Positions 1,595 through 22,675 of a stretch of 44,295 bases of DNA are shown one piece after another. The position numbers and the translations under genes were made by a program. Location: the NCBI GenBank assembly GCA_030066085.1, contig JASJCI010000004.1, positions 1-44,295 on the forward strand. The letters are read 5' to 3'. Numbering within the stretch: position 1 is the stretch's first letter; every line of letters begins with the position of its first letter. The notes beneath the pieces are model-generated. The model made no database searches and was not told the origin of the DNA. It saw only the letters and a list, made by a program, of their open reading frames with translations. This DNA is from Gammaproteobacteria bacterium (GTDB lineage Bacteria; Pseudomonadota; Gammaproteobacteria; GCA-001735895).

Positions 1595-1599
1595 GTTCC

Positions 1600-1953: not shown

Positions 1954-2518
1954 GACCAGCCTCCTCCATGCGGTAGGACACCAGCGTCAGCGACAGGCTC
2001 AGCAGCGGATCGTCCGTGTCGTCGGCACTGCCGGCATCGATATCGAATTTCTTGACCACGATGTAGCCGAGCTCATCGTTGACCATCTGCAGCCATTCGA
2101 AGAAGTCGTGGTAATGCGCATTCAGACGAACCTCGAACAGGCTTTCGCGAAAGTTCTGCACCTGCCTGCCGCTGCCCGGCTGTACGCTGACCAGCTCGAC
2201 GTCGGTCGCCCACGACACCTTTTGCAGGCGGCCGATGACGAAGGATTCCATCTGTTTTGCCGGCAGGCGCGCCATGTCGCCGTGCAGTTCGCGCGACAGC
2301 TTCTGTACCTCGCCGTCGATGTGCGCGAGCTGCAAAGTCAGCGAATCGCTACTGGATACGGTCTGCTCCAGCAGCTGGTGACTGGCATTGAGGGCACGAT
2401 AAGTCTTGAGCTGCGGCCACAGCAGGTAGGTGATTTCGACCACCCCGACCAGCAGCACGATGCCGATCAGCATCATCGCTACCACCCGCGGCTGCGCATT
2501 GTCGAAGAAGTCCTGCAT
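1943..2518 (-). CDS. Pilus alignment protein, PilO/MshJ-like
   Basis: This 191-residue bitopic inner-membrane protein has a short cytoplasmic N-terminus, one membrane segment (about 13-34, VVAMMLIGIVLLVGVVEITY), a periplasmic helix (about 40-90), and a ferredoxin-like domain. The segment around HYHDFFEWLQMVNDELGYIV is typical of PilO/MshJ. Its ATG overlaps the stop of the PilN-like gene by one base (TGATG), indicating translational coupling. With its PilN-like partner it would form the heterodimer linking the cytoplasmic PilM-like ring to the secretin. The family is confident; PilO or MshJ naming is a matter of nomenclature. Confidence 0.82.
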   Translation of the reverse strand: MQDFFDNAQPRVVAMMLIGIVLLVGVVEITYLLWPQLKTYRALNASHQLLEQTVSSSDSLTLQLAHIDGEVQKLSRELHGDMARLPAKQMESFVIGRLQKVSWATDVELVSVQPGSGRQVQNFRESLFEVRLNAHYHDFFEWLQMVNDELGYIVVKKFDIDAGSADDTDDPLLSLSLTLVSYRMEEAGRAS

Positions 2519-3174
2519 CAGCCCCTCCGGCCGCGGGTGCTGACGACGACATCGAGACTGAAATCGACCAGCTTGGCCGCGTCCGACTCGTTCATTCGCG
2601 TATTGACGATACGCACGTTTTCGATCTCGGGCTGTTGCGTCAGGTTGAGCACGAACTTCGACATCGCGACGTGATCGAGCGCCTGGCCCTGGATCGTCAT
2701 CGTGGTATCGATTTTCCAGGTTTCCTCGGCCTGGTTCGGACTGTCCGAAGTGATGACGATGAAATACCCGGTGTTGACCGCTTGCTCGCGGTTTTCGACC
2801 GGCGTACCGGCGCGGCGGAATTTCCAGTTGGTCAGCCAGACGTCGGGGCCGGGCAGCGCGCGGTCGATCATGACGAACATCTGCTCCGCCGACGCACCGC
2901 TACGCAGTCCGCTGAGCAGGTCGAGCTGCTGGCGCAGATCCTTTTTCTGCCGGGTCAGCTTTTCCAGTTCGCGCCGATTGGCGTTGGTAATTTCACGCTG
3001 CGATTGAAAGTCGGTGATTTCCGCATCGATGCGCGCATTGGCCTCGCGCAGCGCGACGAAAGCGCCCACGAACAGCAGCGTCATCAGCAGCAGCGCGACG
3101 CCGGCCTGCTTGAGCCAGCGCGTGAACAGCAGCTTGCGCCGCAGGTCGTCGGGAAACAGGTCGATTTCACTCAT
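2518..3174 (-). CDS. Pilus alignment protein, PilN-like
   Basis: The protein is about 218 residues when started at the ATG at 3174, whose product begins MSEIDLFPDDLRRK. The frame is open much further upstream, but that part only shadows the PilM-like gene. An N-terminal cytoplasmic segment (the PilM-binding region in PilN) is followed by a membrane helix (about 21-42, VALLLMTLLFVGAFVAL), a coiled coil (about 45-90) and a periplasmic domain. The start overlaps the PilM-like stop by 8 bp and the stop overlaps the PilO-like start by one base. In MSHA loci this position is filled by the second part of MshI or by MshI2. Family assignment is good; pairing with its neighbours is inferred from position. 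Confidence 0.8.
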   Translation of the reverse strand: MSEIDLFPDDLRRKLLFTRWLKQAGVALLLMTLLFVGAFVALREANARIDAEITDFQSQREITNANRRELEKLTRQKKDLRQQLDLLSGLRSGASAEQMFVMIDRALPGPDVWLTNWKFRRAGTPVENREQAVNTGYFIVITSDSPNQAEETWKIDTTMTIQGQALDHVAMSKFVLNLTQQPEIENVRIVNTRMNESDAAKLVDFSLDVVVSTRGRRG

Positions 3175-4300
3175 GCCCGATCTGTCCCCTGAGCGCCAGC
3201 CCCATCGCGATCGAGATATCGGCAAACAGCCCGTGCCACGGGATACGCGTGTCCTCGTTTTCGTCGCGAAAGATCTGGGTAAACTCGGTCTGGCCGTCGG
3301 GCGCGTCGAAGTCGAGCAGCGACAGCAGGGTCTGCTGCGCGCCGGGCCAGTGCGAAATCGCGCCCAGCAGGCAGATCCGGCTGACCGGTACACCGTGGGT
3401 CTCGGCCGCGGTGAACACCAGCACGCGGTTGATTTCGTTGACCAGCTCGAGGAAGTGCGGCTTGACGATTTCGAGCAGGGTCGCCGACACATCGCCGGCA
3501 TCCTCGGCACCCATCGCGCGCAGCAGCGGCTGCTTGTCGAAGCCGTGATCGACCACCAGCGCCCTCGCCGATGCCAGCGAAACGTCGAGCTCGCGCGCGA
3601 TACGCTCGAGCAGCATGGTTTCGCCGAAGGCGACTGACTGGTTGAACAGCAGGCGACGACCCGAGATCACCGTCAGGTAGGATTCCTGCGGGTAGGTATT
3701 GATCATCAGCACGTTGTCGGCGGCTTCGCCGGTATAGAGTGCGCCGACCACGCGCCTGAGCGCGGTGGGCGCGACATCGAGCGAATCGATCTCGAGCCCG
3801 CAGCCGATCAGCGTATTGAGCAGCCGGTCGACGCTTTTCCGCGACGCCACCGTGGCCACCACCATGTGCTCCTCGTCGCCCGGCTTGGCGCGCACCGGCA
3901 CGTAATCGACGACGTAGTTATCGATCGGCTCCTCGACCCGGCTGGCCAGCATGCGCACAACCTCGGCGTCGACGTCGCTGACGCTTGACTTGTAGGTCAG
4001 CGGGATGATGCGCACGTCTTCCCAGGGCATCAACGCGGCTACCCGCCGGCCCTTGAAACCTTTTTTCCTGAGCGCATCGTTGAGCATGCGTTTCAGCCGG
4101 CGGGGATCCTCGAGCAGCGCCTTGCGACCGCCGTCGTAGTCGATCGAGGCCTTGGCCACGATCGAGTAAAGCCCGTGTTCCAGCGGCCGGATCTGGCACA
4201 GATGTATCTGGCGCTCGCCCAGGTCAAGGCCGATCAGCCCGGGGCCCGAGGCCTTCGCCGGCGACGGAATTCGGTTCTTGAATTTCTGCAGTATCGACAT
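3167..4300 (-). CDS. Actin-like cytoplasmic pilus protein, PilM/MshI-like
   Basis: This 377-residue protein has the FtsA/PilM fold. A basic N-terminus leads to GLIGLDLGERQIHLCQI (about 21-37), the first phosphate-binding strand-turn. Later come LIGCGLEIDSLDVAPTALRR (about 168-187), a nucleotide-pocket strand (VLMINTYPQESYLTV) and ICLLGAISHWPG near the C-terminus. PilM forms a cytoplasmic ring that binds the PilN N-terminus and joins the ATPase to the envelope complex. It is the first gene of the alignment block. About 295 bp upstream contain a composite palindrome rather than a gene, so this block may have its own promoter, although I could not identify one. Confidence 0.82.
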   Translation of the reverse strand: MSILQKFKNRIPSPAKASGPGLIGLDLGERQIHLCQIRPLEHGLYSIVAKASIDYDGGRKALLEDPRRLKRMLNDALRKKGFKGRRVAALMPWEDVRIIPLTYKSSVSDVDAEVVRMLASRVEEPIDNYVVDYVPVRAKPGDEEHMVVATVASRKSVDRLLNTLIGCGLEIDSLDVAPTALRRVVGALYTGEAADNVLMINTYPQESYLTVISGRRLLFNQSVAFGETMLLERIARELDVSLASARALVVDHGFDKQPLLRAMGAEDAGDVSATLLEIVKPHFLELVNEINRVLVFTAAETHGVPVSRICLLGAISHWPGAQQTLLSLLDFDAPDGQTEFTQIFRDENEDTRIPWHGLFADISIAMGLALRGQIGHE

Positions 4301-10700: not shown

Positions 10701-11905
10701 TGGTGCAGCTCGAGCGATGCCTCTACCACCTCGGCACCGTAGGGAATCACGCCCATGTTGAACCAGATGACGCTGTTGTCGTCGTTGACACCGGCCGCAT
10801 CCTGCACCCACAGCGTCGGTCCGGCGCCGAAGTTGTTGTCGGGCTTGTTCTGATTCATCGACGCATCGAAACCGCCGGCACCGTCGGGCTGCAGCTCGTA
10901 AAAAGCCGGTGCGGGCTGGCGCAGCGTAACGTCGCGCAGCAGCGTGCGGCTGGTGCCGTTGGACAGACTGCCGACCGATTTGAGTTTTGCCAGCGGTGAC
11001 GGCGGGGTACCGGCAATCACCTCGAGATAAGGCGGAAACGACGACTCGCGGCTCAGGTATTCGCCGTGCGCGCCGTCACCGCGCGAGTTCAGCGTGATGC
11101 CGAAATTGGGAACACCGTTGACCCAGGCCTGCACCTGCGGCGACAGGTTGACCGCCACCCAGAGTCCCGCGTTCGGCTGGGTCGGGATGCGCGCGAGAAC
11201 CTCACTGCCCATCGCGTCGCCGAGCTGGTCCCAGCTGGCGTTGGTTTCGGTCCAGTCGCTGGTCAGCGCGCGAATTTCGATCGGGCCCTCGGGGTGCTCC
11301 TTGTTGAGGTAAAACCACGCCACCGCGGACAGGATCGGCGTCTGCGCCGGAATCGACGACAGGTCGTAGCGGTAGACTGGACGTTCGGTCACGCCGTCGG
11401 AACGGAAATGAAGCCTTGTATCGGTGGCGTGAACCCGGGATGTGTCGTCGTCGCGTATCCAGCCGTCCTGGTCGACCGTGATCGTATACGGTGTCGTGCT
11501 GCCGAGATCGGTGGTCAGGCTGGTACCGTACTTGTCGTCACTGAACGGCACGTTGAACAGGTCGGTGTAGGGTCCGCATCCCTGCTGGGCGGCCAGCTGC
11601 AGGCCGTGCTGTAGGCCGGCCTGGGCAACGTAGTCGGCCCGCACAGCTTCGAATTCGCCGCTGGTGGCATTCACCTCGATTGCGCTCTCGCTCGCGATCA
11701 GGAACGCGAGCACGCCGATCAGCGCAATCGCGATCGCGACGGGCAATAGCACGTAACCACCCTGCTTCTCGCTTGTCATACCGCGGCTTGACCGCGGTAT
11801 CCAGTGAATCCCGAATTCGCCATGGACCCCGCGGTTTTTAGGCCCTTTGGGTCCAAGCCGCGGGGTGACAGGTGCCAGAAGGTTTGCGAGGAGCGCGGGC
11901 AGCAT
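6812..11905 (-). CDS. Giant pilus-associated adhesin-like protein at the MshP/MshQ position
   Basis: The protein has about 1,697 residues from the ATG at 11905, or 1,655 from the ATG at 11779. One N-terminal membrane helix follows KQGGYVLL and resembles PilX/MshP minor pilins. Next come two DNRLRE-type domains (about 11560-11000 and 10950-10340), two ~200-residue repeats of Rossmann-like appearance (about 10290-9690 and 9670-9070; RSIEWAMGGG and RSLEWANGSD close them), two LamG/concanavalin domains (about 9066-8440 and 8435-7830), a glycine-rich linker, and three ~110-residue C-terminal repeats. The ATG at 11905 shares one base with the preceding stop (TGATG), but a palindromic repeat lies between it and the helix and supplies the second ATG. 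By position it combines MshP and MshQ, and a tip adhesin role is inferred. Confidence 0.82.
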   Translation of the reverse strand: MLPALLANLLAPVTPRLGPKGPKNRGVHGEFGIHWIPRSSRGMTSEKQGGYVLLPVAIAIALIGVLAFLIASESAIEVNATSGEFEAVRADYVAQAGLQHGLQLAAQQGCGPYTDLFNVPFSDDKYGTSLTTDLGSTTPYTITVDQDGWIRDDDTSRVHATDTRLHFRSDGVTERPVYRYDLSSIPAQTPILSAVAWFYLNKEHPEGPIEIRALTSDWTETNASWDQLGDAMGSEVLARIPTQPNAGLWVAVNLSPQVQAWVNGVPNFGITLNSRGDGAHGEYLSRESSFPPYLEVIAGTPPSPLAKLKSVGSLSNGTSRTLLRDVTLRQPAPAFYELQPDGAGGFDASMNQNKPDNNFGAGPTLWVQDAAGVNDDNSVIWFNMGVIPYGAEVVEASLELHQFYATNPASEVGVHRLRQYFIEGVNDDAPGSGVTWNRYQDGSNWGSPGGDFDGLAISTTSIPSNTTGPVSWDITGLVQGWVDGSYPNFGLILTPESPGTDVGFRSSEHTVAGERPRLRVTYRCSCGRVCQPPQGSGGRIVMIGNWPGSLPDSRDLEKEAIIESWGYQIDHADDNSIWTINFNNYDLVYVSETASSAAIQGQLDFRSIGAVIEQGNAWDDFNLSNEDDQGTGFNVDVVDNSHYITAPFALGALQIYDRPMEILTVVAPIAQDLQILVEDGGDGSLTILDDGATSLAGPAAGKRVTLPLGRDTNSDFNWNYLNANGRLLVQRSIEWAMGGGSLPSIGNLLLVVNNDSSLTTQEIAKRSLFDSWGWAVSVIDSGDNQGSFDAATAANDVVYVGEDIVASDLGNKLVNATIGVVIEENNLADEFGFADGINWGSGTDLKLVTSHYITSTLPTGAGTILTTAESLSNLTGNQAPDIQLIGFNGVGPSLAALDNGAALNGGGNAAGRRVIVPWGGNNMDINHLNDDGRTILQRSLEWANGSDLDFSPLAHWKLDEPGGSIAVDSAGGHDGTLTNGPEWSAGMLEGGLAYDGIDDAIIVPHTDTLSLTEAMTFTAWVKSNAFGVDGPYDLVVSKGTVATSYAYYFGALNDEIIFGFSAGGSYREFVTPNLNLATDTWHHLAATFDNASNRVRLYHNGVEVLATTTTYEPSATTHDLYVGSSEDGADWDGELDDVRIYPRALDPTEIVELAERPGPMAHWRFDEGSGNIAVDEVGGHDATITNPVWDPGQDGGAIRVLSLNEAGAAPHDDTLSLTRGLTLMAWVSKANLTGYDTAIDKASSGADINYFLGTWYDEIVFGFSTATDNWQGYYTSGVNLSTGSWDHIAASFDNAANEVRIYRNGSLVQTWASTLEPLTNNGNLWLGRSALTSEFLSGRLDDARIYPRVLDASEIQQVYDDTAGGGGAGGGYVEANQSWSATTSNAWQTVDLAGFGVPANAIVEVVVENTSTTAQREGGVRAVGSALDRRFDLQEAEGGGVDAMTLHVQADASSRIQHFAENAGNIRFRMVGYWTAGSYSDRDVLFTAGASNSWQTRSLSAYGVAPGQIVEIMAQNNNGSNEYRAGVRASGSSNSETFDLHEAEAGGRDFLTLFVEAGSDAAASIEVFAENNGEIEFKVVGVWDTPPGTYTEARAVLGNPTADSNWQTIDLSGFGVPPNSVAQIVMANRFASAQNRQGVRSVGNGLPRYIDIHEAENGGEDLVTMHVPVDGSSQIQWMHQDVSDAHRYYLAGWWVLP
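11774..11872. repeat. Palindromic repeat inserted at the start of the adhesin-like gene
   Basis: Two hairpins, built on CCGCGGCTTGACCGCGG and on GGACCCCGCGG...CCAAGCCGCGGGGTGAC, belong to the GTCAT/ATGAC family seen elsewhere in the window. On the minus strand the element is open in frame and encodes about 33 residues (for example PRLGPKGPKN and HWIPRSSRGMTS) between the coupled ATG at 11905 and the pilin-like membrane helix. Its last bases create the alternative ATG at 11779. Confidence 0.75.
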
Positions 11906-12894
11906 CACAGGGCACCGCCGACGCGGACCTGGGTTTGCAGGCTGATCGATTCGCCGCTTTGCGGGTCGGTCAGCTCGAGTGTCAGGTCGACGAGATCGTA
12001 ACCACTGCCGGTATCGATGCGCTCGACGCGCAGGCGGGTGACGTGTTGCGCAATAGGCGATTCGACGAAATCGCGGCCGTCGACCGGGCCGTTGGGTACG
12101 CTGATGCCGTCGGTGTCCCAGCGCGCCGGCAGACGCTCGATGAGCGCGCTGCCGCTCAGGTAATAGACTACGGGATCGAGCGGATCCTCGAACTCCCCCG
12201 GGTTTTCGTCGTCGTTGTCGGCATTTCCGGTGCTGATGTTGCCACTGTTGTCGTCGTCGACGCCGCAAAGCCCCGGACAGCCGTCGGCGTTCATATCCGA
12301 CGCGGTATCCTCGTCGATACTGCCGTCGCCGTCGTTGTCGATGCCGTCGAGCGGATCCTCGTTTTCACTGCCGTCCTCGTCGTCGTCGTAGCCGTTACCC
12401 TCGTCCGTGTTGCCGTCGCCGTCGTCGTCGATGCCGACGATGCCGGGCGTAAAATCATGCTGGTTGTCGTTCGGAAAATCCTCGCCGAATAACCCGTCGC
12501 CATCATCGTCGGCATCCGGAGTGCCGTCCTGATCGAGGTCCATATCGTACGGCAGCTGAACCGCCAGCACCGCGCTGGCAAAGGTGCTGTCGCCGATCGG
12601 CGGCGAAGCCGGGATCGTCTGTTCCCGCAGGTTTTCGGGCCAGTTGGTATTCGGGTTATCGCGCAGCGGCAGCAGCAGGCGCGGCGAGCGACCCGTCATG
12701 TCGACCATGCGGTTTAGCGCGAAGCGCGCCTCTCGCACCAGCTCGTTGCGGACACGTGCAGAATCGCCGGCGTCGGTGGCGGTGCCGATCAGGCCCATCA
12801 GCGCGAGCATGATCAGGCCGGTGATGGTGACCGCGATCAACATCTCGACGTAGGTGAAACCGCGGGGTCGGCGAATAGCGCAGGCAAACGTCAT
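11905..12894 (-). CDS. Minor pilin with calcium-binding-like Asp-rich insert (GspJ/MshO-like)
   Basis: This 329-residue prepilin has a type III signal, RGFTYVEML, with cleavage after Gly-12 and Glu at +5, followed by the usual hydrophobic helix. The helical stalk (about 40-75) fits the GspJ/PilW/MshO family. The middle (about 115-240) is extremely rich in Asp and contains repeated DxDxDG loops such as LDQDGTPDADDDGDG and GIDDDGDGNTDEG, resembling thrombospondin type 3 or EF-hand-like calcium loops. The C-terminal beta part (about 240-329) resembles other GspJ proteins. It follows the MshD-like gene by 8 bp and overlaps the next start by one base. Calcium binding is inferred from the motif. 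Minor pilins of this class prime and cap the fibre. Confidence 0.83.
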   Translation of the reverse strand: MTFACAIRRPRGFTYVEMLIAVTITGLIMLALMGLIGTATDAGDSARVRNELVREARFALNRMVDMTGRSPRLLLPLRDNPNTNWPENLREQTIPASPPIGDSTFASAVLAVQLPYDMDLDQDGTPDADDDGDGLFGEDFPNDNQHDFTPGIVGIDDDGDGNTDEGNGYDDDEDGSENEDPLDGIDNDGDGSIDEDTASDMNADGCPGLCGVDDDNSGNISTGNADNDDENPGEFEDPLDPVVYYLSGSALIERLPARWDTDGISVPNGPVDGRDFVESPIAQHVTRLRVERIDTGSGYDLVDLTLELTDPQSGESISLQTQVRVGGAL

Positions 12895-12902
12895 GTCCGG
12901 CC

Positions 12903-13319
12903 TCAGTAGCGGCTGATCAGGGTCTGCAGTTCAGCCAGTCCGTTGACCGTGGCCACCCGCACCCACAGGATGTCGTCTTCGCCGCCAGTGAACGAATCGT
13001 CGTCGGCATCGGCGTTGTCGACGTCCCAGCGCCAGATGAATACCGCGTGCGGGACGCTCGCGGCCATGTCGGAGTAGGTCGTCGCTACCGTGAAATCACC
13101 CGCTGCCATGGCCGCATCGTCGAGATCATCGAAGGACTCGGCGAGCACCTGCTCGAGTTTGCCCTGCAGCATGAAGTTGACCTCGGCGCGATCGCTGTGG
13201 ATGCGCGAGCCCTGCAATCCGGGACCCAGCGCTTCCATCATCGGCACCAGCGCCACCGCGATCAGCAGGGTGGCGACCAGCACCTCGATATAGGAAAGGC
13301 CGGATTCGTGTGACTTCAC
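12903..13319 (-). CDS. Minor pilin, GspI/PilV/MshD-like
   Basis: This 138-residue prepilin starts with GTG at 13319, which overlaps the preceding stop by 4 bp (GTGA). The leader MKSHESG is cleaved before LSYIEVLVATLLIAVALVP, giving Glu at +5. Its small size and the sequence LQGKLEQVLAESF after the helix are typical of GspI/PilV/MshD proteins. The C-terminal part carries an acidic stretch (DVDNADADDD), recalling the Asp-rich loops of its downstream neighbour. It probably forms part of the tip complex with the flanking minor pilins. Confidence 0.8.
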   Translation of the reverse strand: MKSHESGLSYIEVLVATLLIAVALVPMMEALGPGLQGSRIHSDRAEVNFMLQGKLEQVLAESFDDLDDAAMAAGDFTVATTYSDMAASVPHAVFIWRWDVDNADADDDSFTGGEDDILWVRVATVNGLAELQTLISRY

Positions 13320-13885
13320 TGGATCGTCACCTTGCCGCTGAAGCCGTCGAGCGAGACGATGCGCGACTCCGAGCCCAGCGTCAGGGTGACTTCGTAGCGC
13401 TCGACGGGAACGGTTTCGGGATCGGCACAGCGCGCGATGCCGTTACTGTCGAAGTAGATGTTGCTGGGCTTGTTGCAGGTGCCGCGGAAATCCTTGACCG
13501 TGCTGACCGAGTCGGCCGCGGCAAACGGATGCTTGTCGAGGCGGATATCCCACAGTTTTTTGCTGACGGGATGATAAACGTCGTAAATGACCGTCCAGGG
13601 CGCGGTGCCGGTATCGAGATTGAAGACACGCATGCGTTTCTGGCCGTTCTGCTGGCGAAAGCCCATCGGTTCGCCACGGCGCATCGCTTCCGCGCGGGCG
13701 TAGCGCATCGCTTCCGCCTGGATCTCGGCGGCGAGATCGAGTTGAGCAGGCCTGCTGGAAAAAAAAGACGGGATCACGGCCGCGGCCATGATCCCGAGGA
13801 TGAGTACAACCAGAGTCAGCTCGAGCAGGCTGTAGCCGTGCCGGTTGCCCGGGTTCGTGCGAAGGGGGGATTCACGCGAATACAC
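13316..13885 (-). CDS. Minor pilin, GspH/FimT/MshC-like
   Basis: This 189-residue prepilin starts with GTG at 13885. The 17-residue leader ends HG, followed by YSLLELTLVVLILGIMAAAV with Glu at +5. The arrangement after the helix (RPAQLDLAAEIQAEAMRYAR) and the C-terminal beta domain match GspH/FimT/MshC. It begins 28 bp after the major pilin stop and overlaps the MshD-like gene by 4 bp. In type II and MSHA systems this pilin belongs to the minor-pilin tip. Two cysteines are present (about residues 143 and 159) and could form a disulfide. Confidence 0.83.
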   Translation of the reverse strand: MYSRESPLRTNPGNRHGYSLLELTLVVLILGIMAAAVIPSFFSSRPAQLDLAAEIQAEAMRYARAEAMRRGEPMGFRQQNGQKRMRVFNLDTGTAPWTVIYDVYHPVSKKLWDIRLDKHPFAAADSVSTVKDFRGTCNKPSNIYFDSNGIARCADPETVPVERYEVTLTLGSESRIVSLDGFSGKVTIQ

Positions 13886-13913
13886 ACTGCTTCAACCTGG
13901 CCCGCACGGGGGA

Positions 13914-14501
13914 TTAACGCTGGTCGTACGTTTCGGTTCCCGGGCCGGCACCGTCGATGTCGGTGGTGTCGTTGGCAATGAACTTGCCGGTCAGGACGTC
14001 GTATTTCCAGCCGCCATTGGCGCCATCGCCAGCCATCGCCAGGTCGCCGGCATTGACCACAACAAACTCGGCGAGGAGTTCACCGACATTGGTAATCGGG
14101 TTATCCGGCAGCGTACCCTTCTTCAGGTAGGGGCCGAATTCAAATGTCGCATCCTTAACGCTGCAGGCGCCGCCATTGGCATCGGTATACAGGCTCAACT
14201 GGTCGAGGAAAGCCTGGGCCCGGGTCGCGGCAGTGGTCGCGGTTCCGGTTCCGGCGGTTCCGGTACAACCCGCGCCGACCGCGGTCAGTTCACCGGGGTA
14301 TTCGCCGTGCTGCTGGTAATAAAGATCGATCGCGGCGCGCACGTTGGACAAGGTCGTATCCAGCGAGGCGAGCTTGGCGTCATCGGTGGACGATGCAAAC
14401 TGCGGCACCACGATGGCGGCCAGCAGCGCCAGAATGATGACCACGATCAACAGTTCCACCAGGGTAAAACCTTTCTGAATTGTCTTGCGAAGCGGTTGCA
14501 T
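13914..14501 (-). CDS. Major pilin (GspG/MshA/PilA-like)
   Basis: This is a prepilin of about 195 residues when started at the ATG at 14501, which has GGGA eight bases upstream. In-frame ATGs at 14510 and about 14540 are alternatives. The 11-residue leader ends QKG, followed by FTLVELLIVVIILALLAAIV with Glu at +5 and a long alpha1 helix. The globular part contains a Gly/Thr/Ala-rich low-complexity loop (GCTGTAGTGTATTAAT) and a Cys pair. The layout (ATDDAKLASLDTTLSNVRAAIDLYY) is that of MshA/GspG fibre subunits. It is the first pilin gene, and about 120 AT-rich bases lie upstream, as expected for a strongly transcribed major pilin. Major-subunit status is inferred from order and AT-rich leader. 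Confidence 0.85.
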   Translation of the reverse strand: MQPLRKTIQKGFTLVELLIVVIILALLAAIVVPQFASSTDDAKLASLDTTLSNVRAAIDLYYQQHGEYPGELTAVGAGCTGTAGTGTATTAATRAQAFLDQLSLYTDANGGACSVKDATFEFGPYLKKGTLPDNPITNVGELLAEFVVVNAGDLAMAGDGANGGWKYDVLTGKFIANDTTDIDGAGPGTETYDQR

Positions 14502-14510
14502 TGTTCTCAT

Positions 14511-14621
14511 CCCGTTTTTATCAACAAAAACTAACTTCAAGTGTAGGCACGATCGTCCAAGTATTTGATAAATTTATGAAAAAACTTGATTCAATTAACA
14601 TTATTGATTCAATTTTTCCTG
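14511..14621 (-). promoter_or_regulatory. AT-rich leader upstream of the major pilin
   Basis: This 111-base gap is far richer in A+T than its surroundings (for example TTTATCAAATACTTGG and AAATTGAATCAATAATG on the minus strand). Such a leader would suit an independent promoter or a long 5' UTR for the abundant major pilin. I tested sigma-54 spacing (GG-N10-GC) and sigma-70 hexamers by eye and found no convincing match, so no exact promoter is given. Confidence 0.35.
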
Positions 14622-15752
14622 TCATCCGACCACGCGGGTCAACTTGAATATCGGCAAAATCAGCGAACTGACGATCAATCCCACGACCCCGCCCATAACC
14701 AGCAACATCACTGGTTCTGCGAGTCTCGACAGGGTCTGTAACTTGCTCGAAAGCTCGCCTTCAAAGTAATCGGCGAGGCGGCTCATAACTTTAGGCAGAT
14801 TTCCGGTTTCTTCGCCGGTACTGATCATCTGTTCGACGATCGGTGGGATGAAGTTCACATTTTTGAAGCCGGCGGCGACGCCGTTACCGGTTTCGACCTC
14901 GTGTTCGACCCGGCCAATGAATTCCTGGAACAGCCCGTTGTTGACCACGTGCTTGCTCGCGGCGAGCGAATCCATCATGCCGACGCCGTTGCCGAGCGAC
15001 AGGCTCAGCACCCTCAAGGCATTGACCAGGTACATCTGGGTATACACCGGGCGCAGCAGCGGCAGGTTCAGGCGCGCCCAGTCGAGCCGGCGCAGGCCGC
15101 TGTCGGTCGCGGCCCACAGCTTGAATCCCACCACGACCAGCGCGGTGCCCACACAGAGTTCGATCCAGTGATGCTGCAGGACATTGCTGCCGGCCATCAG
15201 GAACTTCGTGCTCGCCGGCAGCTGGTCCGCGATCTGCGAGAACAGGTCGGCGAACTTGGGAAAAACCACCACCAGTACGAACACCACCACCGCCATGGCG
15301 AACACCATAAGGAACACGGGGTAGGTCAGCGCCGACACCATGGTTTTTTTCAGCTGTTCGCGCTTTTCGTCGAGCGCGAGCAGCTGCGCCAGCACCTCGT
15401 GCATGAAACCGCCGTCCTCGGAGGCTGCCACCAGGTTGGTATAAGTGGTCGAAAACACTGCGGGATGGCGGGCGAGCGCGGCCGAGAACTGGCGGCCCTG
15501 GCCGATTTCCTCGATCAGGTCGTCGATGAGCTCCACCATCTTCGGATTGTCCAGCTGCTTGCGCAGCGCCTGCAGGCTCTGCAGCAGCGGCGTGCCGGTT
15601 TCGAGCAGCAGCGCCATCTGCTCGGTAAAAAACTTGCGGTCGCTGTCACCGACGCCGCCCCCGCCGAAACTCAGCTTCGGCATTTCGAACGAACGCGCGG
15701 TCGGCTTTTCCGCCGGGGCCGGACGTGCCTGGGCGCGCGTGTTAATCGCCAT
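14622..15752 (-). CDS. Pilus inner-membrane platform protein, PilC/GspF/MshG-like
   Basis: The protein has about 376 residues from the ATG at 15752, which has a clear ribosome-binding site (GAGGTG, five bases upstream). Two GspF domains (about 50-175 and 250-370) each hold the family pattern: FFTEQMALLLETGTPLLQSL and LVNALRVLSLSLGNGVGMMDSL. Three membrane segments are visible (about 155-180, 205-225 and 350-372). The N-terminal ~45 residues are basic and Gly-rich. This protein sits in the inner membrane above the assembly ATPase and transmits its motion to pilin subunits. It follows the ATPase gene across a 234-bp gap that holds a palindromic repeat. Confidence 0.9.
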   Translation of the reverse strand: MAINTRAQARPAPAEKPTARSFEMPKLSFGGGGVGDSDRKFFTEQMALLLETGTPLLQSLQALRKQLDNPKMVELIDDLIEEIGQGRQFSAALARHPAVFSTTYTNLVAASEDGGFMHEVLAQLLALDEKREQLKKTMVSALTYPVFLMVFAMAVVVFVLVVVFPKFADLFSQIADQLPASTKFLMAGSNVLQHHWIELCVGTALVVVGFKLWAATDSGLRRLDWARLNLPLLRPVYTQMYLVNALRVLSLSLGNGVGMMDSLAASKHVVNNGLFQEFIGRVEHEVETGNGVAAGFKNVNFIPPIVEQMISTGEETGNLPKVMSRLADYFEGELSSKLQTLSRLAEPVMLLVMGGVVGLIVSSLILPIFKLTRVVG

Positions 15753-15802
15753 GACGGCACCTCGGTGGAGTCCCAATACCCGTCATCGCGAATCCACTAT
15801 TA

Positions 15803-15915: not shown

Positions 15916-15986
15916 GGGGTGATGAACTCGTATCGAGGTTGGAATTTTGTCGAAACTGAGGGTCATGGATTCGTTCCGGCTGCTTC

Positions 15987-18074
15987 CTAGCTGTTGACCA
16001 CGCGCCAGATCTCCTCGATCGTGGTCTGGCCCTCGAGCACGCGATCGATGCCGTCGTCGAACAGCAGCCTGATGTCATGGCTGCCGAGGTAGTCGGTCAG
16101 CTCGTCGCGCGACGCGTTGGCGATGATCAGGCGCTGCAGGTCGGGATCGGTCTCGATGATTTCGTGGATGCCGAGACGGCCGCGGTAACCCGAGTCGTAA
16201 CACTCGGCGCAGCCGCGGCCCTTCGACAGGCGAACCTTGCCCTTATCCTGCCAGCCGTAGCGTTCAACGATCTCCGGGCTGGCGAGGTACTCGGTCTTGC
16301 AGTTGGGGCAGATCGCGCGCACCAGTCGCTGCGCGACCACGCCGATCATCGCCGACGACAGCAGGTAGGGCTCGACCCCCATGTCGATCATGCGCGTGAC
16401 CGCGCCGATGCTATCGTTGGTGTGCAGGGTCGACAGCACGAGGTGACCGGTCAACGCCGCCTGCACCGCGATCTCGGCGGTTTCGCGCTCGCGGATCTCG
16501 CCGACCATGACCACGTCCGGGTCCTGGCGCAGCACGTGTTTCAGCATCTTGGCGAAGCTGAGGCCGATGTTTTCCCGCACCGGGTTCTGGTTGACGATAT
16601 CGAGCTGGTATTCGACCGGGTCCTCGATCGTGACGATGTTCTTTTCCAGGCTGTTGAGGTAGTTGATCGCCGAGTACAGGCTGGTGGTTTTACCGGAACC
16701 GGTGGGTCCCGTGACCAGGATCAGGCCGTAGCTGCGATCCAGCAGCCGCTTGTAGGCGTTGACGTTGTCCGCCTGCATACCGAGCTGGTCGATGTCCAGT
16801 ATCGACTGGTTGCGGTCGAGCACGCGCAGCACGACCTTTTCGCCGTGCAGGCCGGGCAGCGAGCTGAAGCGCAGGTCGACCGCGCGTCCCTGGGTATGCA
16901 CCTGGATGCGACCGTCCTGCGGCATGCGCCGCTCGGCGATATCGAGGTTGGCCATGACCTTGAGACGCGATACCAGCGCCGGGTGCAGCTCCATGCGTGG
17001 CGTCATGACCTCGTACAGCAGGCCGTCGATGCGGAAGCGCACGCGGCATTTTTTCTGCGACGGTTCGATGTGAATATCGCTGACCTTGTCGTGCACCGCG
17101 CGCTGGATGATCGAGTTGACCATGTTGATCACCGGGCTCTCGGCGGCCATCTCGTCGATACCGGTGTAGTCGTCCGGCAGCGCACCGTCGATATGCTCGA
17201 AGTCCTCGTCGAGCTCCTCGAGCATTTCCACGCCGTAGAGCGCATCGCTGCCGGTATCGCTGAGCGTCTTGACGATGTCGCTCTTGCGCATCAGCACCGG
17301 GCGAATCTTGCACTCCAGCCGTTCCTCGATTTCGCGGAAACCGGTAATCGCCTGCGGATCGGCGGTCGCGAGCGCAAGTTCGCCGTGCACGCAAAACATC
17401 GGTACAACTTTGAGCCGTTGCGCAACCTCCGCATCGAGACGGACGAACACGTCGGGATCCACCAGTCCCTGGCGCATCACGACGAAGGGAATACCAAGCT
17501 GTTCGCCGAGCGTGTCGAGGAACACGTCTTCCGACACCCAGCCCTTGCTGATGATGATCTGGCCGAGGCGTTTACCGCTTTTTTTCTGTAATTCGATTGC
17601 CTGTTCGATCTTGTCCGGTTCGATCAGGCCACGCTCGACCAGCAGGTCGCCGACGCGCAGCGATTCGTTGCGCACCGGCGCCTTTTCCACTTCGGGGCGG
17701 TCGATGTTGAAACTGTTGACGATGTCGATGACCTGGTCGAGCCCGGTAACGCGAAAGATGTCGCGTACCAGCGGCTTGGCGTTGGTGACCTTGAGCCAGC
17801 CGCCGTGCCTGACCAGCTGCTGGCGCAAGTCGAACAGGGTTTCGAGGCCGCGGCTGTTGACCTGTCCCACGCTGACCAGGTCGACGATGAGCTGGAACTC
17901 GTGCGCGGTGATCGACTCGTCGACCGCCTGTACCAGCGCTTCCAGCGCTTCGTCGTTGGTCAGGTTGCCGCGCGGGAACAGGTGCGTCATCGCACCGACG
18001 CGGTTGCGCGTGATCGCGGCCGGGGTCAGGCCGTCTTCGATGTTTACCGCAGCGGGAGTAGACACGGGCGTCAC
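15987..18074 (-). CDS. STAS-MshE type pilus assembly ATPase fusion
   Basis: The protein has about 695 residues from a GTG at 18074; a GTG at 18065 with GGTGA upstream is an alternative. Residues about 15-120 form a STAS-like domain (PRGNLTNDEALEALVQ, FQLIVDLVSVGQVNSRGLE). Residues 140-192 are an MshEN domain: two 24-residue motifs, beginning RVGDLLVERG and RLGQIIISKG, each ending in Gln and separated by exactly five residues (KKSGK). This is the c-di-GMP site known from MshE. The GspE ATPase follows, with Walker A GPTGSGKTTS, Asp box, Walker B DPDVVMVGEIRE, His box LSTLHTND and a CxxC...CxxC zinc site (CPNCK, CAECY). It energises pilus extension. STAS at the N-terminus is unusual for this family. 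Confidence 0.9.
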   Translation of the reverse strand: MTPVSTPAAVNIEDGLTPAAITRNRVGAMTHLFPRGNLTNDEALEALVQAVDESITAHEFQLIVDLVSVGQVNSRGLETLFDLRQQLVRHGGWLKVTNAKPLVRDIFRVTGLDQVIDIVNSFNIDRPEVEKAPVRNESLRVGDLLVERGLIEPDKIEQAIELQKKSGKRLGQIIISKGWVSEDVFLDTLGEQLGIPFVVMRQGLVDPDVFVRLDAEVAQRLKVVPMFCVHGELALATADPQAITGFREIEERLECKIRPVLMRKSDIVKTLSDTGSDALYGVEMLEELDEDFEHIDGALPDDYTGIDEMAAESPVINMVNSIIQRAVHDKVSDIHIEPSQKKCRVRFRIDGLLYEVMTPRMELHPALVSRLKVMANLDIAERRMPQDGRIQVHTQGRAVDLRFSSLPGLHGEKVVLRVLDRNQSILDIDQLGMQADNVNAYKRLLDRSYGLILVTGPTGSGKTTSLYSAINYLNSLEKNIVTIEDPVEYQLDIVNQNPVRENIGLSFAKMLKHVLRQDPDVVMVGEIRERETAEIAVQAALTGHLVLSTLHTNDSIGAVTRMIDMGVEPYLLSSAMIGVVAQRLVRAICPNCKTEYLASPEIVERYGWQDKGKVRLSKGRGCAECYDSGYRGRLGIHEIIETDPDLQRLIIANASRDELTDYLGSHDIRLLFDDGIDRVLEGQTTIEEIWRVVNS

Positions 18075-18084
18075 CAGCCGCGCG

Positions 18085-20286
18085 TCAGGCGGACTTGACG
18101 CTGCGCGCCTGCAGCGACGCGAACGGCGCCGGTTTGCCGAGGCCGAATCCCTGGCCGTAATCGACCCCGATGCGCGCGAGCTTGCCGCGGATCGCGTCGT
18201 TTTCGACAAACTCGGCAACGGTTTTCAGCTGCATGGCATGGCCGACCTGGTTGATCGCGGCCACCATGCTCTCGCTGACCGGATCCTTGAGGATATCGCG
18301 CACGAAACTGCCGTCGATCTTGAGGTAGTTGACCTTCAGGTTCTTGAGGTAGGCGAACGAACTGAGCCCGGTTCCGAAGTCGTCGAGCGAGAATTCACAG
18401 CCAAACGCGCGCAGCTGCTCGATGAAAATGCGCGCGTCGTCGATGTTGGCGATCGCGGCCGACTCGGTGATTTCGAAACAGACGTCACCGGGCGTAACCC
18501 CGTGCTCCTCGAAACGGTTCTCGATGTAGGCGGCAAAGGACACCGGGTCCACCAGCGTCTGTCCCGACAGGTTGATCGAGATCCGGCAGCCGCCCTTCTC
18601 CTGGTCGACCTGCGCCAGCTCCTGCAGTGCGCGGTCGATGACCCAGTAGTCGATACTCGACATCAGGTAAAAGTTCTCGGCCGCACCGAGAAACTTGCCG
18701 GGCGGAATCTCGCCCCCGTCGCCGAGCATGCGCAGCAGGATCTCGTAGTGCGGCTTGTCCCCGTCGGGTTTGAGCGGCACGATCGGCTGCGCGTAGAGCA
18801 CGAAACGGTCGTCGCGCAGGGCCGACTGGATCTGCGTCACCCAGCGAATCTGTTCCTTGCGCTGCAGCAGGTCCGAGTCCTCGAGATCGAGCACGTGGAT
18901 CGTGTTACGCCCGCGCTCCTTGCTGACGTTGCGCGCGGTTTCGGCTGCATTCAGCAGACCCGTGACCGACTGCGCCTGCGCCGTGATCGGTGCGATACCG
19001 ACGCTGACGCTGACCTCGTGCGTACGGCCTTCCCATTCGAGGTCGATCGCCGACACCGCGTGGGATATCTTTTTCATCACGATCTTCGCCGTCGGCAGGT
19101 CACAGTTTTCCAGCAGCACGCCGAACTTGTCGCTGCCGATGCGCGCGACCACGTCGCGCGAGCGCACCATGCCGGCGAGGGTTTGCCCCACCTTGCGGAT
19201 CAGCTCGTCACCCGCCTCGCGGCCGCTGATATCGTTGACCACCGCCATGCGGTCGATATCGACGTTGGCGATCGCGTGCGTGACCTCGCTGCCCCAGGTC
19301 TGCTTGAGCAATTCCTTCAGGATCAGCTCGAAACTGTTGCTGTTTTCCAGCCCGGTCAGCGCATCGAAGTGGGATTGCGCAATCTTGGAGGCCTTGCGCG
19401 CCATCACGTCGAGCAGGTTGCGGTCGCTGTTGGAAAAGTCGACCGCGAAGTTCTGGCTAGCCATCGTCAGCGAACCGATAACCTTGCTGTCACCGTCATA
19501 AACGGGGCTGCTGACCAGCTTGAACGCCAGGTCCTGGTCGATGGCACGGGTACTGGCTTCATCCGGATTATTGATGACGATGGCGGTGCCCGCGCTCGCG
19601 ACCGCCGGCTGCACCTGCGCACGTATGCAGGCGAACAGCTTGTCTGCCTCGAACACGGGATTGTCGTTGCGAAAGCGATGCATCGCGATGTTCTTGCCGA
19701 CGATGTAGAGGTAGATGACGTCGACGTTGAGAAAACGGGCCGTGTTCTGCACCAGCTGGCGCAGCAGTTCGCGCCCGTGGTAGATGTTCATCGCCTGGTC
19801 TTCGGCCTTGTACACCAGGTTGAGTTCTTCGTAGCGGCGCGTGAGCTCGTCGGTCATGTGGTTGAGTTCGTCTTCCTTCGACGCCAGCGCCAGCCCCTGT
19901 TCATACTCTGTCAGTAAAAGCTCGTTCAACAGCTGCAGGTGACGGCAGTCGCCAAAAGGCCTGGGCTCCTCGCCCTCTTCGCCGCTGAGCGCAAACACGA
20001 GCTGCAGCACCACGTCGCCGGCAGCGTTTACCAGCGGCACAAGCTCGAGCCAGTCGCTGTCCTCGAGCGCAACCAGGTGCCGCTCCGCCGAGGCAACCGT
20101 GCTCAACGCGCGGGTCGCGGCTTCGAGTTCGGGTGCGGTCAGACCCTCGACCCACAGCGGCTCGGGATTGGGCGCAAATACCGCCAGGCCGTGGATGGCC
20201 GGGTGGAACTCGCGCATCAGGCCGAGGTAGTTGGCGAATCCCGCGGCAGCGGTGGCCATATCGTTATTGACCGACGACATCGTCAT
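18085..20286 (-). CDS. GAF, degenerate GGDEF and EAL protein (likely c-di-GMP phosphodiesterase)
   Basis: This 733-residue protein has no membrane segment. The N-terminal ~150 residues are unassigned and are followed by a coiled coil (about 135-165), a GAF-like domain (about 170-310), a GGDEF domain (about 325-480) and an EAL domain (about 495-725). The GGDEF signature is degraded to RIGSDKF, so cyclase activity is not expected. The EAL domain reads EIL but keeps the metal and catalytic residues in INLSG, FEITES, LDDFGTG, YLKIDG and AEFVE, so hydrolysis is likely. The ATG at 20286 lies inside the receiver gene (23-bp overlap), and the stop is about 10 bases before the ATPase start. This places a predicted c-di-GMP phosphodiesterase immediately before a predicted c-di-GMP-binding motor. 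Confidence 0.88.
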   Translation of the reverse strand: MTMSSVNNDMATAAAGFANYLGLMREFHPAIHGLAVFAPNPEPLWVEGLTAPELEAATRALSTVASAERHLVALEDSDWLELVPLVNAAGDVVLQLVFALSGEEGEEPRPFGDCRHLQLLNELLLTEYEQGLALASKEDELNHMTDELTRRYEELNLVYKAEDQAMNIYHGRELLRQLVQNTARFLNVDVIYLYIVGKNIAMHRFRNDNPVFEADKLFACIRAQVQPAVASAGTAIVINNPDEASTRAIDQDLAFKLVSSPVYDGDSKVIGSLTMASQNFAVDFSNSDRNLLDVMARKASKIAQSHFDALTGLENSNSFELILKELLKQTWGSEVTHAIANVDIDRMAVVNDISGREAGDELIRKVGQTLAGMVRSRDVVARIGSDKFGVLLENCDLPTAKIVMKKISHAVSAIDLEWEGRTHEVSVSVGIAPITAQAQSVTGLLNAAETARNVSKERGRNTIHVLDLEDSDLLQRKEQIRWVTQIQSALRDDRFVLYAQPIVPLKPDGDKPHYEILLRMLGDGGEIPPGKFLGAAENFYLMSSIDYWVIDRALQELAQVDQEKGGCRISINLSGQTLVDPVSFAAYIENRFEEHGVTPGDVCFEITESAAIANIDDARIFIEQLRAFGCEFSLDDFGTGLSSFAYLKNLKVNYLKIDGSFVRDILKDPVSESMVAAINQVGHAMQLKTVAEFVENDAIRGKLARIGVDYGQGFGLGKPAPFASLQARSVKSA

Positions 20287-20668
20287 GTTTCCAGCTATCG
20301 GTGTTACCGGCGAAGTAGGCGTCGAGCTTCTCCACCAGGTTGCGGATACTGACCGGTTTTTCGAGAAACAGCAGGTTGGGAATATCGCGCGACCACTCGC
20401 GGTGCTCGATCTCGGTACGCGAGGTCAGCACGAAGATCAGGAACCGGCGACTCGGCATGAATTCCTGGATATGGCGACACAACTGTTCACCGGTCATCTG
20501 CGGCATCTGGATGTCGGTGATCAGCACGTCGGGCTCCTCGACTGACAGGCGCGCCAGCGCCTCCTTGCCGTTGGCGCTGGTATCGACCGCGTAGCCCTCT
20601 CGTTCGAGCGACATCTTGAGCACGCGCAGTACGTGGGGCTCGTCATCAGCAATCAGTATTTTCTTCAT
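20264..20668 (-). CDS. Single-domain response regulator
   Basis: This 134-residue protein is a lone receiver domain. It starts MKKILIADDEP with the acidic pair, the phospho-acceptor Asp is in LITDIQMPQMTG, and LFLEKPVS carries the conserved Lys. No output domain is attached, so it must act by protein contact. Its ATG overlaps the kinase stop by four bases (ATGA), and it overlaps the GAF/GGDEF/EAL gene by 23 bp. The natural reading is that the kinase phosphorylates it and it then controls the adjacent EAL protein or the pilus motor. Confidence 0.9.
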   Translation of the reverse strand: MKKILIADDEPHVLRVLKMSLEREGYAVDTSANGKEALARLSVEEPDVLITDIQMPQMTGEQLCRHIQEFMPSRRFLIFVLTSRTEIEHREWSRDIPNLLFLEKPVSIRNLVEKLDAYFAGNTDSWKHDDVVGQ

Positions 20669-22542
20669 GAGGCCGCGTCCAGTATCTGGGTTGAAACCTT
20701 CTCCAGTCGAATCGTGAAACAGCTGCCCCTGCCGAGCTCGCTGGTGAAACTCAGGTCGCCGTGATGCATCAGGACGATCTGTCTTGCCAGTGACAGGCCT
20801 AGCCCGTGACCGGCCTGTTTCCTTATCTTGTCGTCCGACGCGCGGAAAAACTTATTAAAAATCTGCTTCTGGTCCTGCCTGGCGATGCCGTAGCCCTCGT
20901 CGGTGACGGAAATCTCGATGCTGTCTTCCGTCTCGCTGGCGCTCATGCTGACCTTGCCGCCGGGCTCGCTGTACTTGATCGCGTTGGTCAGCAGGTTATT
21001 GACCGCGATACGGAACAGGTCCTTGTCGATGTAGACCATGCTCATCTCGCGCGGAATATCGAGCTCGAACTCGAGGCGCTTGTCGGCGCGCGACTGGGTC
21101 ACGTTGTTGAACACGTCCTCGAGAAACTCGTGCATGCGCACGTGGTTACGCTGCGCCACCACGCCGCCGAGTTCGTACTGGTTGATCGCCAGCAGGTTGT
21201 TGATCAGCGTCGACAGGCGTTCGACCTCGTCGTGAATCACGTTGACCGCCTCGGTGCGATAAGCCGGATCATCGGCCGAGTCACCGAGCAGGGACTCGCT
21301 GTACATCGCGAGCACGTTGAGCGGTGTCTTGAGCTCGTGCGAGACGTGCGACACGAATTCGTTTTGCCGCTGGCGCATCAGGTGGGTTTCGCTGACGTCG
21401 CGGATAACCACAAGGCGGCCGAGAATCTGGCTGTCGGCGGCGGGCGCAAATAGCGGGTAGACGCTGAACTGCAGGGTCTTTTCGCTGTGGTCGTCGAGGC
21501 GTAACTCGATCGTGTCCTGATTGGCCTGCAGCCCGCTCTTGACGTCGCTGAAGGTCAGCAGCGGCAACAGCTTCGGATCCTGGCACCACTCGTGCGTCTT
21601 TTTGCCGATGATGTCGTCGGCGCTGATACCGAGCAGGCGCTCGATCTTGCCGTTGGCGTAGTTGATTTCGCCGGCTTCGTCGATCACCAGGATCGCATCG
21701 GGGAAGTTTTGCAGGATCGAGTCGATCCGGTTGCTGCGGTAGGTCAGCAGCTTGCCCGACATTTCGAGTTCGTCGCGTTCGCGGTTCAGGTTTTCGATGC
21801 GGGCCTGGGTCGCCTCGATGTAGTTGCTGAACTGCTGCATGAAATCGGACAGCGCCTGGCTCGGCTGCAGTTCTACCGCTTGCGGGCCGGTATCGTCGGC
21901 AATTTTATCGAGCCGGTTGCTCAGCTGTCGCAGGGGCTGAAATTCGCGTCGCAGCAGGAAGTAAAACAGCGGCGCCAGCAGGAAAATCGGTAGCAGCAGC
22001 GAGGCCATGAACGGCATGTCGGCGTAAGCGGGCGCGATCCGCGGCTGGTGGTAGCCGAGGCGCACGAAGCCGGCGTGACGACTGTCGTCGAACACCGGTG
22101 CATGCGATTCGATGAAGCGGGCGGCGCCGTTGGCCTGGTCGACCAGGCGCTGACCGAGCCAGGTCGCCGGCTCGTCGCCGAGCCGGGCGACGGGCACGAT
22201 CACGCCCGGGCGAGTGACCTCGACCACGATGCGGCCGCTGGTGTCGACCAGTGCGCCGTAAGCGAAATCGGGGTTACCCTGCCCGCGCCGCAGCAGTTCG
22301 AGCACTCCCTGGCTGCCGCGCCGGGGAGCGAGTTCCTGCCACTGCATGCCGCCGAGCAGGCGCGCGAGATCGAGCCCCTGGGCGCGTGCCAGCGCCTCGC
22401 GGTTGGTCCGCTGGTAGTCGAACAGCAGGTAGGCGGTGGCACCCATGACGAGCAGGGTGGCGAGGATCATGATCAGGCCGAAACGCTGGTTGGATAACAT
22501 CTTTTTGTAATAACTTTTATCTATCGCTTGCGGGTTGCCCAT
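20665..22542 (-). CDS. Membrane sensor histidine kinase with PAS domain
   Basis: The protein has about 625 residues from the ATG at 22542, or 611 from the ATG at 22500, which lies just before the first membrane segment (FGLIMILATLLVMGATAYLL). A periplasmic sensor (about 150 residues) follows, then a second membrane segment (MASLLLPIFLLAPLFYFLL), a HAMP-like linker, a PAS domain (ILVIDEAGEINYANGKIERL), HisKA with SHELKTPLN, and an HATPase domain with NNLLTNAIKYSEPGG and GHGLGLSLARQIV. It is coupled to the receiver gene by a 4-bp overlap and heads the pilus locus. The signal is unknown. Neither candidate start has a clear ribosome-binding site. Confidence 0.88.
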   Translation of the reverse strand: MGNPQAIDKSYYKKMLSNQRFGLIMILATLLVMGATAYLLFDYQRTNREALARAQGLDLARLLGGMQWQELAPRRGSQGVLELLRRGQGNPDFAYGALVDTSGRIVVEVTRPGVIVPVARLGDEPATWLGQRLVDQANGAARFIESHAPVFDDSRHAGFVRLGYHQPRIAPAYADMPFMASLLLPIFLLAPLFYFLLRREFQPLRQLSNRLDKIADDTGPQAVELQPSQALSDFMQQFSNYIEATQARIENLNRERDELEMSGKLLTYRSNRIDSILQNFPDAILVIDEAGEINYANGKIERLLGISADDIIGKKTHEWCQDPKLLPLLTFSDVKSGLQANQDTIELRLDDHSEKTLQFSVYPLFAPAADSQILGRLVVIRDVSETHLMRQRQNEFVSHVSHELKTPLNVLAMYSESLLGDSADDPAYRTEAVNVIHDEVERLSTLINNLLAINQYELGGVVAQRNHVRMHEFLEDVFNNVTQSRADKRLEFELDIPREMSMVYIDKDLFRIAVNNLLTNAIKYSEPGGKVSMSASETEDSIEISVTDEGYGIARQDQKQIFNKFFRASDDKIRKQAGHGLGLSLARQIVLMHHGDLSFTSELGRGSCFTIRLEKVSTQILDAAS

Positions 22543-22675
22543 AAGCCGGGGCGATAACGCCGCGGTGCTCCCGCTGGTTATCGGCAGCACAACCCGAAAA
22601 TTGAGCGAAATCGATGGCAAAAATAGCTATCGAAACGTGCCGCGCATCACATTGCCGGCGATCTCGCGGCTGACC

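Follow-up and report, generated by a model that had tools for sequence, protein, structure and literature searches.

In the stretch of DNA analyzed here, a 44,295-nucleotide gammaproteobacterial contig (JASJCI010000004.1 of assembly GCA_030066085.1; hereafter the window), a single minus-strand gene (15987..18065) joins a STAS domain, a MshEN domain and a pilus/secretion ATPase in one protein. The fusion is real. Related bacteria of one family retain it, in most cases next to the same trio of signaling genes, which encode a sensor histidine kinase, a response regulator and a GAF-GGDEF-EAL protein. Judged from sequence and gene neighborhood, an outside signal and the second messenger cyclic diguanosine monophosphate (c-di-GMP) probably act jointly to control the building of the fiber.

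A STAS domain in front of a MshEN-bearing motor

Profile searches and an alignment of relatives delimited a gene of 692 codons with a GTG start at 18065 (coordinates include the stop codon). Its product carries STAS at residues about 16-118 (17712..18020), the predicted c-di-GMP-binding MshEN domain at residues about 136-272 (17250..17660; located with NF053729, PF05157 and an alignment to 5HTL) and a T2SSE ATPase (15996..17168), all on the minus strand. The ATPase matched PF00437 at E 6.3e-137 and has Walker A (GPTGSGKT, residue 453), GEIR (522), HTND (548) and the two CxxC pairs CPNC (586) and CAEC (619). Walker A, GEIR, HTND and the four cysteines were invariant in 13 rows, window included, and with the T2SSE match they identify an assembly ATPase of the type IV pilus/type II secretion system kind.

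The open frame holding the fusion runs from 15987 to 18218 on the minus strand, and the frame of the upstream gene ends at 18085. A TTG at 18218 was rejected as the start; the sequence there is unconserved, and relatives have stops. The first-pass annotation had begun the gene at GTG 18074. The second GTG, at 18065, is probably the true start because the relatives' starts align with it and several relatives have a stop codon a few codons upstream; it lies 9 bases inside GTG 18074 and 5 bases downstream of GGTGA. The STAS domain is inside the protein with either GTG, and start codons precede it in the relatives with upstream DNA in the set, which argues against a true start behind the domain. 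That the STAS domain is an annotation artifact, either untranslated or left ahead of the real start, is therefore highly improbable: no ATG precedes the domain and the GGTGA signal ahead of the GTG is modest, but the STAS frame is open and conserved in 33 members, with starts ahead of it wherever upstream DNA is present, and this conservation speaks strongly against an artifact.

The domain that the first-pass annotation had described as STAS-like, and had proposed to check with PF01740, matched that profile at E 3.8e-8 (33.5 bits against a curated cut-off of 22.6) and STAS_2 (PF13466) at E 5.9e-8; PF01740 also matched all 33 family members scanned at E<=0.001. A profile search of the PDB found TM1442 and SpoIIAA by sequence at E about 1e-5, and a search with the single sequence alone found no STAS chain at E 0.01. 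An AlphaFold2 model of residues 1-292, built on a 33-row alignment, had a mean predicted local distance difference test score (pLDDT) of 83.6, with blocks of residues 21-110 at mean pLDDT 92-97. Foldseek matched the model to STAS structures (1thn_B at E 2e-6), and VIA-align 2 aligned it to 3f43 (Z 16.6, root-mean-square deviation [rmsd] 3.1, 115 aligned) and 1thn_B (Z 16.1, rmsd 2.6, 111 aligned); structural matches in the two programs were SpoIIAA, TM1442 and TM1081. The predicted fold is a STAS fold as in SpoIIAA-type domains. The order read in the first-pass annotation, STAS ahead of a MshEN-bearing motor, is thus borne out by Pfam and predicted fold alike.

Residues G24 and G89 of the STAS domain were invariant in the 33 rows. 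Small-ligand binding has been proposed for some STAS domains, and the invariant glycines, along with the wide use of STAS folds (transporters included) in the VIA-align 2 list, are compatible with a second metabolite sensor that would bind a nucleotide, lipid or anion. The gene neighborhood points instead to protein signaling, and we assign ligand binding a low probability.

A candidate phosphoserine, S71 (17853-17855, minus strand), falls within the domain, and a serine is kept at this position in 31 of the 33 members. It bears on a partner switch, which the first-pass annotation had suggested as an input. Under classical partner switching, a kinase of the RsbW/HsbR type would phosphorylate S71, a SpoIIE-type phosphatase would reverse this, and the motor would be a client like HsbA of Pseudomonas aeruginosa. 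HsbA works in this manner, and its interaction with HsbD needs Ser56 according to the available portion of PMC5085249. The window's own genome also holds an HsbR-like frame of 585 amino acids with SpoIIE and HATPase_c_2 matches (C44:107621-108733), but no SpoIIE-type phosphatase or stand-alone RsbW-type kinase was found among the window genes scanned. The residue ahead of S71 varies (N, D, H, S or Y in the 33-member set), so that no conserved Asp precedes the serine, which may instead be kept as a helix cap.

HATPase_c_2, a profile that also matches histidine kinases, had matches in all 20 carriers searched (matches listed), mostly in frames of histidine-kinase size; in at least 5 of the 20 the match covered nearly the whole profile, and these alone were counted as RsbW-like. 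The serine is kept in G224, which has no SpoIIE match, and in G161 and G180, whose SpoIIE matches are weak, whereas G218 has Gly at the position despite strong RsbW- and SpoIIE-like matches. Across the carriers, then, the serine does not track RsbW-like or SpoIIE-type proteins. Phosphoserine control may operate in the organism of the window, but it is not convincing as a general rule. As the function of the domain, partner switching is distinctly unlikely.

The paired motif of the MshEN domain

The MshEN domain matched PF05157 at E 2.7e-11 and scored 63.9 bits (cut-off 38) on NF053729, the NCBIfam model of the MshE c-di-GMP motif. Its paired motif, RVGDLLVERGLIEPDKIEQAIELQ-KKSGK-RLGQIIISKGWVSEDVFLDTLGEQ, spans residues 137-189 (17499-17657) as two 24-residue motifs with a 5-residue spacer. 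The published pattern, as given in the accessible part of PMC5013675, has 11 defined positions per motif; the window protein met 17 of the 22, whereas none of 2000 shuffled versions of its sequence matched more than 13. The motif had been described as perfect, and while its 24+5+24 layout holds, its match to the pattern is incomplete. The departures in motif I are at positions 2 (V), 17 (I) and 21 (I), and those in motif II at positions 11 (W) and 17 (F). Leucine is replaced by V or I in three of them and by F in a fourth; the fifth is the W at motif II position 11, where V. cholerae MshE has F in the alignment. Glycines 11, 18, 40 and 47, both Arg, both Gln and the equivalent of V. cholerae MshE Asp108 are kept. 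By its layout and four glycines the domain is of the MshEN receptor type at the sequence level. Binding of c-di-GMP is likely because the pattern positions, the glycines and the Arg, Gln and Asp residues are kept and the predicted fold matches 5htl_B (VIA-align 2, Z 18.3).

All four motif glycines were present in 20 of the 33 family members, and together with the Arg/Gln set in 18. In locus L096 (9342-11699, minus strand), motif I is short by about eleven residues, and half of the c-di-GMP site looks lost; the row used, which has a gap in motif I, was cut eight residues ahead of the likely ATG. L096 clusters with Woeseiaceae rows in the tree.

The STAS-fused ATPases form one clade

A quick tree was made of 93 ATPases, and its 30 STAS-fused rows lay together on one side of a single branch (Shimodaira-Hasegawa-like approximate likelihood-ratio test 100), apart from a 50-row clade holding the MshE of the same genome. 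The tree left out the fusions cut by contig ends (L076, L091 and L099), as well as L188; several long rows (PilB, TfpB and HofB) are of uncertain placement, and V. cholerae MshE was not knowingly among the rows.

Counts from the genome surveys refer to the matches listed, with 4 to 8 candidates scored per genome in the class and phylum surveys, and weak members may have been missed. Among the matches listed, at least 13 of the 57 nearest genomes had a full fusion (the window's own genome included in both counts), and G006 had a copy cut by a contig end. By kinship, full fusions were listed in at least 8 of 30 genomes of the same genus (plus 1 cut), at least 3 of 5 other family members and at least 1 of 21 further genomes. 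The fusion was listed in at least 16 of 369 genomes of the class, at 17 places or more, and, in 398 genomes of the phylum, in the window's own genome and in G525, from another class. The first-pass annotation had proposed to seek the fusion in other MSHA (mannose-sensitive hemagglutinin) loci; it is found in related genomes, but the window locus is not MSHA (see below). One genome, G298, has two copies of the whole kinase-regulator-GGDEF/EAL-STAS-ATPase locus (L087 on contig C102 and L088 on C34).

A search with the motor only, in which four candidates per genome were scored, matched 15 places in 14 of the 369 class genomes, and none was a STAS-less member of the clade. All 15 belong to known fusion carriers; the unmatched carriers G229 and G335 hold contig-cut copies. 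Within the 33-member set, which was gathered with profiles that include STAS, the c-di-GMP motif has eroded in some members while the STAS domain is present in all. Because of this, and because the motor-only search found no member without it, the conservation pattern suggests that STAS is not an accessory. When plasmids were searched with the fusion (numbered from 18074), the ten listed matches all started at residue 78 or later: the alignment to H9 (Allomeiothermus silvanus, 35% identity) began at residue 78, and those to the remaining nine at residue 118 or beyond. At least 15 plasmid records span 80% or more of the query; STAS was not looked for in those records.

The 17 loci from named records are all from Gammaproteobacteria, nearly all of them metagenome-assembled genomes. 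Named carriers include Olavius algarvensis Gamma 3, Escarpia and Lamellibrachia endosymbionts, one Thiotrichaceae and Woeseiaceae bacteria. Olavius, Escarpia and Lamellibrachia are marine worms, and attachment could matter for symbiosis in the carriers that live in them.

A signaling cassette lies upstream of the fusion

Three minus-strand genes precede the fusion: a GAF-GGDEF-EAL protein (18085..20286), a single-domain response regulator with phosphoacceptor D52 (20264..20668) and a sensor histidine kinase with PAS, HisKA and HATPase_c domains and H428 (20665..22620). GAF, GGDEF and EAL were found by Pfam, and a second, N-terminal GAF by predicted fold alone. The model of this N-terminus (pLDDT 86.6, predicted template modeling score 0.58) has two domains with a long connecting helix, and tandem-GAF structures lead its Foldseek matches, with low whole-length template modeling scores.

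We compared 34 distinct fusions (the window, 32 others and L188), 33 of them with upstream DNA (all except L084). The order kinase, response regulator, GGDEF-EAL, fusion lies directly upstream in 31 of these 33, a few of them with the kinase cut by a contig end and one of them a fusion from another class. L093 has only the kinase and regulator ahead of the fusion, and L082 has none of the three genes. The response regulator pointed out earlier, two genes upstream, is a stable neighbor. The cassette was found in none of 40 STAS-less MshEN ATPase loci, of which L114, L120, L127 and L128 hold about 0.6 to 2.1 kb of upstream DNA. These controls were not random: they are the 32 best STAS-less MshEN matches in rank order and eight lower picks (G118, G321, G190, G247, G151, G262, G096 and G232, with others skipped), and some may be PilB or GspE instead of MshE. 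In one control, L108, a GGDEF-EAL-type gene adjoins the ATPase on the opposite strand without kinase or regulator.

Of the 369 class genomes, 20 have the N-terminus of the GGDEF-EAL family, and 15 of these carry the fusion; the only carrier in this set without it is G045. In G240 and G248 the kinase and regulator adjoin the family N-terminus, but the GGDEF-EAL gene is truncated by the end of the contig, which does not extend to the position of the ATPase, and in G057, G204 and G308 the N-terminus stands without other cassette genes beside it. In L093, a separate protein encoded about 3 kb farther upstream (15670-17787) combines the double-GAF part with a histidine-kinase-like C-terminus. This protein may be a swapped output in a locus that has no GGDEF-EAL gene.

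Residues that we take to be catalytic are kept across the cassette. Asp52, Asp8, Asp9 and Lys104 of the response regulator were present in 31 of 31 rows, and the regulator is predicted to be competent; His428 of the kinase was present in 30 of 30 rows, as were the EAL residues E515, N572, E605, E608, D635, D636, K656, E692 and Q712. The GGDEF motif is degenerate in the window (GSDKF) and, among 30 rows, reads GGDEF in 6 and SGDEF in 2, the others differing. The GAF-GGDEF-EAL protein would thus be a phosphodiesterase or a c-di-GMP binder.

A proposed two-input motor and the evidence that bears on it

Domain architecture, predicted folds, the single clade and the conserved neighborhood are the basis of a two-input reading, in which a STAS docking port and a MshEN c-di-GMP reader jointly gate the extension ATPase of a non-MSHA, type IV pilus-like system; we consider the chances that it is correct to be evenly balanced. 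Two regulatory modules would stand ahead of the motor. Motif, fold and literature suggest that MshEN senses c-di-GMP in the way its V. cholerae MshE counterpart does, and the accessible text of PMC7096442 reports that c-di-GMP with MshE promotes pilus extension. The STAS domain would be a protein-docking port that receives the state of the cassette, both through the route from sensor kinase to response regulator and from the GAF-GGDEF-EAL protein, and the motor would reach full activity only with c-di-GMP bound and the port permissive. Such a port is supported by STAS in 33 of 33 members, the single clade, the cassette counts (31/33 against 0/40) and the intact key residues of kinase, regulator and EAL domain. 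Precedents for the inputs are found in the parts of two papers at hand: PilZ and FimX act at the N-terminus of PilB (PMC8389850), and HsbA binds a diguanylate cyclase (PMC5085249).

A more specific version, in which the phosphorylated response regulator docks on STAS and the EAL phosphodiesterase of the cassette sets the local c-di-GMP level that MshEN senses, is possible but doubtful. If true, it would place the motor under direct two-component control through a two-input gate, with STAS as a receiver-domain acceptor. To our knowledge, there is no precedent for STAS in that role.

Several observations weigh against the two-input motor. All genes of the pilus locus are inherited together, and for this reason the conserved neighborhood is no proof that STAS is the docking point; it makes the cassette products candidate partners of STAS. 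A mirror-tree analysis of STAS co-variation, with the ATPase signal removed, singled out no partner. Partial rank correlations were 0.33 for the catalytic part of the kinase, 0.30 for a pilG control, 0.30 for the kinase sensor, 0.29 for the double-GAF part, 0.27 for MshEN, 0.18 for PilC, 0.14 for pilX, 0.10 for EAL and 0.09 for the response regulator, so that a pilin control was about as high as any and the response regulator lowest. At least one motif glycine is gone in 13 of the 33 members, and c-di-GMP reading may have been lost in part of the family. Locus L082 (G045; Thiotrichaceae UBA5859) keeps STAS and has no kinase, response regulator or GGDEF-EAL gene. Finally, the in vitro effect of c-di-GMP on V. 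cholerae MshE was a change of <10% in ATPase activity (PMC5013675, accessible part); given so small a change, a dependence on c-di-GMP need not show as ATPase rate.

The retention of STAS in L082, and in members with an eroded c-di-GMP motif, would also be expected if the domain were a structural or oligomerization module, serving hexamer assembly or binding to PilM or PilC with no signal input. In the tree, however, the rows for canonical MshE, GspE and PilB manage without STAS, and it is with the STAS clade that the upstream cassette is associated; a purely structural role is unlikely.

The pilus locus is not MSHA

The genes around the fusion encode a type IV pilus-like system on the minus strand. 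A PilC/GspF inner-membrane platform protein (14622..15776; T2SSF E 2.8e-51) is followed by four pilin-like genes identified in profile scans (11905..14540): one GspG-like (13914-14540), one GspH-like (13316-13885), one weakly PilV-like (12903-13319; match under its cut-off) and one with a prepilin motif (11905-12894). PilM (3167-4300), PilN (2518-3510), PilO (1943-2518) and a secretin (233-1594) of the same system lie at 233..4300, and the PilM-N-O order is common to the window and L093, L097, L105 and L188.

The first-pass annotation had placed the fusion in an MSHA locus, an identity that we rejected. On the MshL model (TIGR02519), the window secretin scored 150.6 bits, under the cut-off of 250.2, and the ATPase falls in a clade of its own, outside canonical MshE. 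The MSHA locus of the same genome lies elsewhere, on contig C33, where a secretin reached 268.6 bits, over the cut-off, and a 586-amino-acid MshEN ATPase without STAS stands a little further on. The two genes are at 6452-8152 and 10457-12214 of locus L146 (C33:8000-27000). About 14 kb past it, L147 has another MshEN ATPase of 582 amino acids. The genome further holds PilB (C11) and TfpB (C64), both over cut-off.

Comparison with known systems

V. cholerae MshE has the same MshEN paired 24-residue motifs and T2SSE motor, and its Arg, Gly, Gln and Asp108-equivalent residues are kept in the fusion. Unlike MshE, the fusion has STAS in front and a two-component/GGDEF-EAL cassette upstream; its locus has no MshL-type secretin over the cut-off, and its clade is separate from the canonical MshE rows. 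PilF of Thermus thermophilus, another pilus ATPase, likewise has several regulatory domains at its N-terminus, one of them a GSPII-B domain that binds c-di-GMP, but the extra domains matched in it are further GSPII copies and not STAS. FimX carries its own receiver domain, and HsbA is a STAS protein. In the PilB-PilZ-FimX system of Xanthomonas citri, an adaptor binds the N-terminus of the extension ATPase and links it to a GGDEF-EAL protein, as stated in the consulted part of PMC8389850. The adaptor here would be STAS, fused to the motor; the EAL residues are intact and the response regulator is a separate protein, and the likeness is one of analogy. The P. aeruginosa HsbA-HsbD pair, in what is available of PMC5085249, likewise couples an anti-anti-sigma protein to a c-di-GMP enzyme. 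HsbA is free-standing and regulated by HsbR, whereas here STAS is part of the motor, and the window yielded no HsbR-like gene.

No STAS-fused pilus or secretion ATPase was described in the open-licence literature searched; the one paper matched, in the portion available, names gspE among listed genes and STAS-domain proteins in tabulated expression data, with no fusion. Of the signal inputs to pilus extension motors, PilZ, FimX and c-di-GMP on MshEN have been studied, in a few model species. Motor, sensor kinase, response regulator and c-di-GMP enzyme make a compact four-gene system in which an outside signal could be traced to a motor.

Other genes of the window

The pilus locus also includes, at 4596-6757 (minus strand), a HDOD gene and a GGDEF gene whose GGDEF motif is intact, a pair also present in L100 and L101. 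The GGDEF gene is a possible local source of c-di-GMP opposing the EAL protein. Adjoining the pilins is an adhesin-like protein of 1818 amino acids (6812-12268, minus strand) with LamG and CBM96/DNRLRE stretches, whose size and similarity differ widely among loci. On the plus strand, a hybrid kinase with three Hpt stretches precedes a REC-GGDEF-EAL protein that has kept its GGDEF motif (35846-40992), a putative second c-di-GMP pathway. Also on the plus strand, a protein of 2132 amino acids (29415-35813) carries DUF4347, CBM96, a PD40 propeller, cadherin-like and LamG domains and adjoins three genes with HlyD-type matches (24457-29324).

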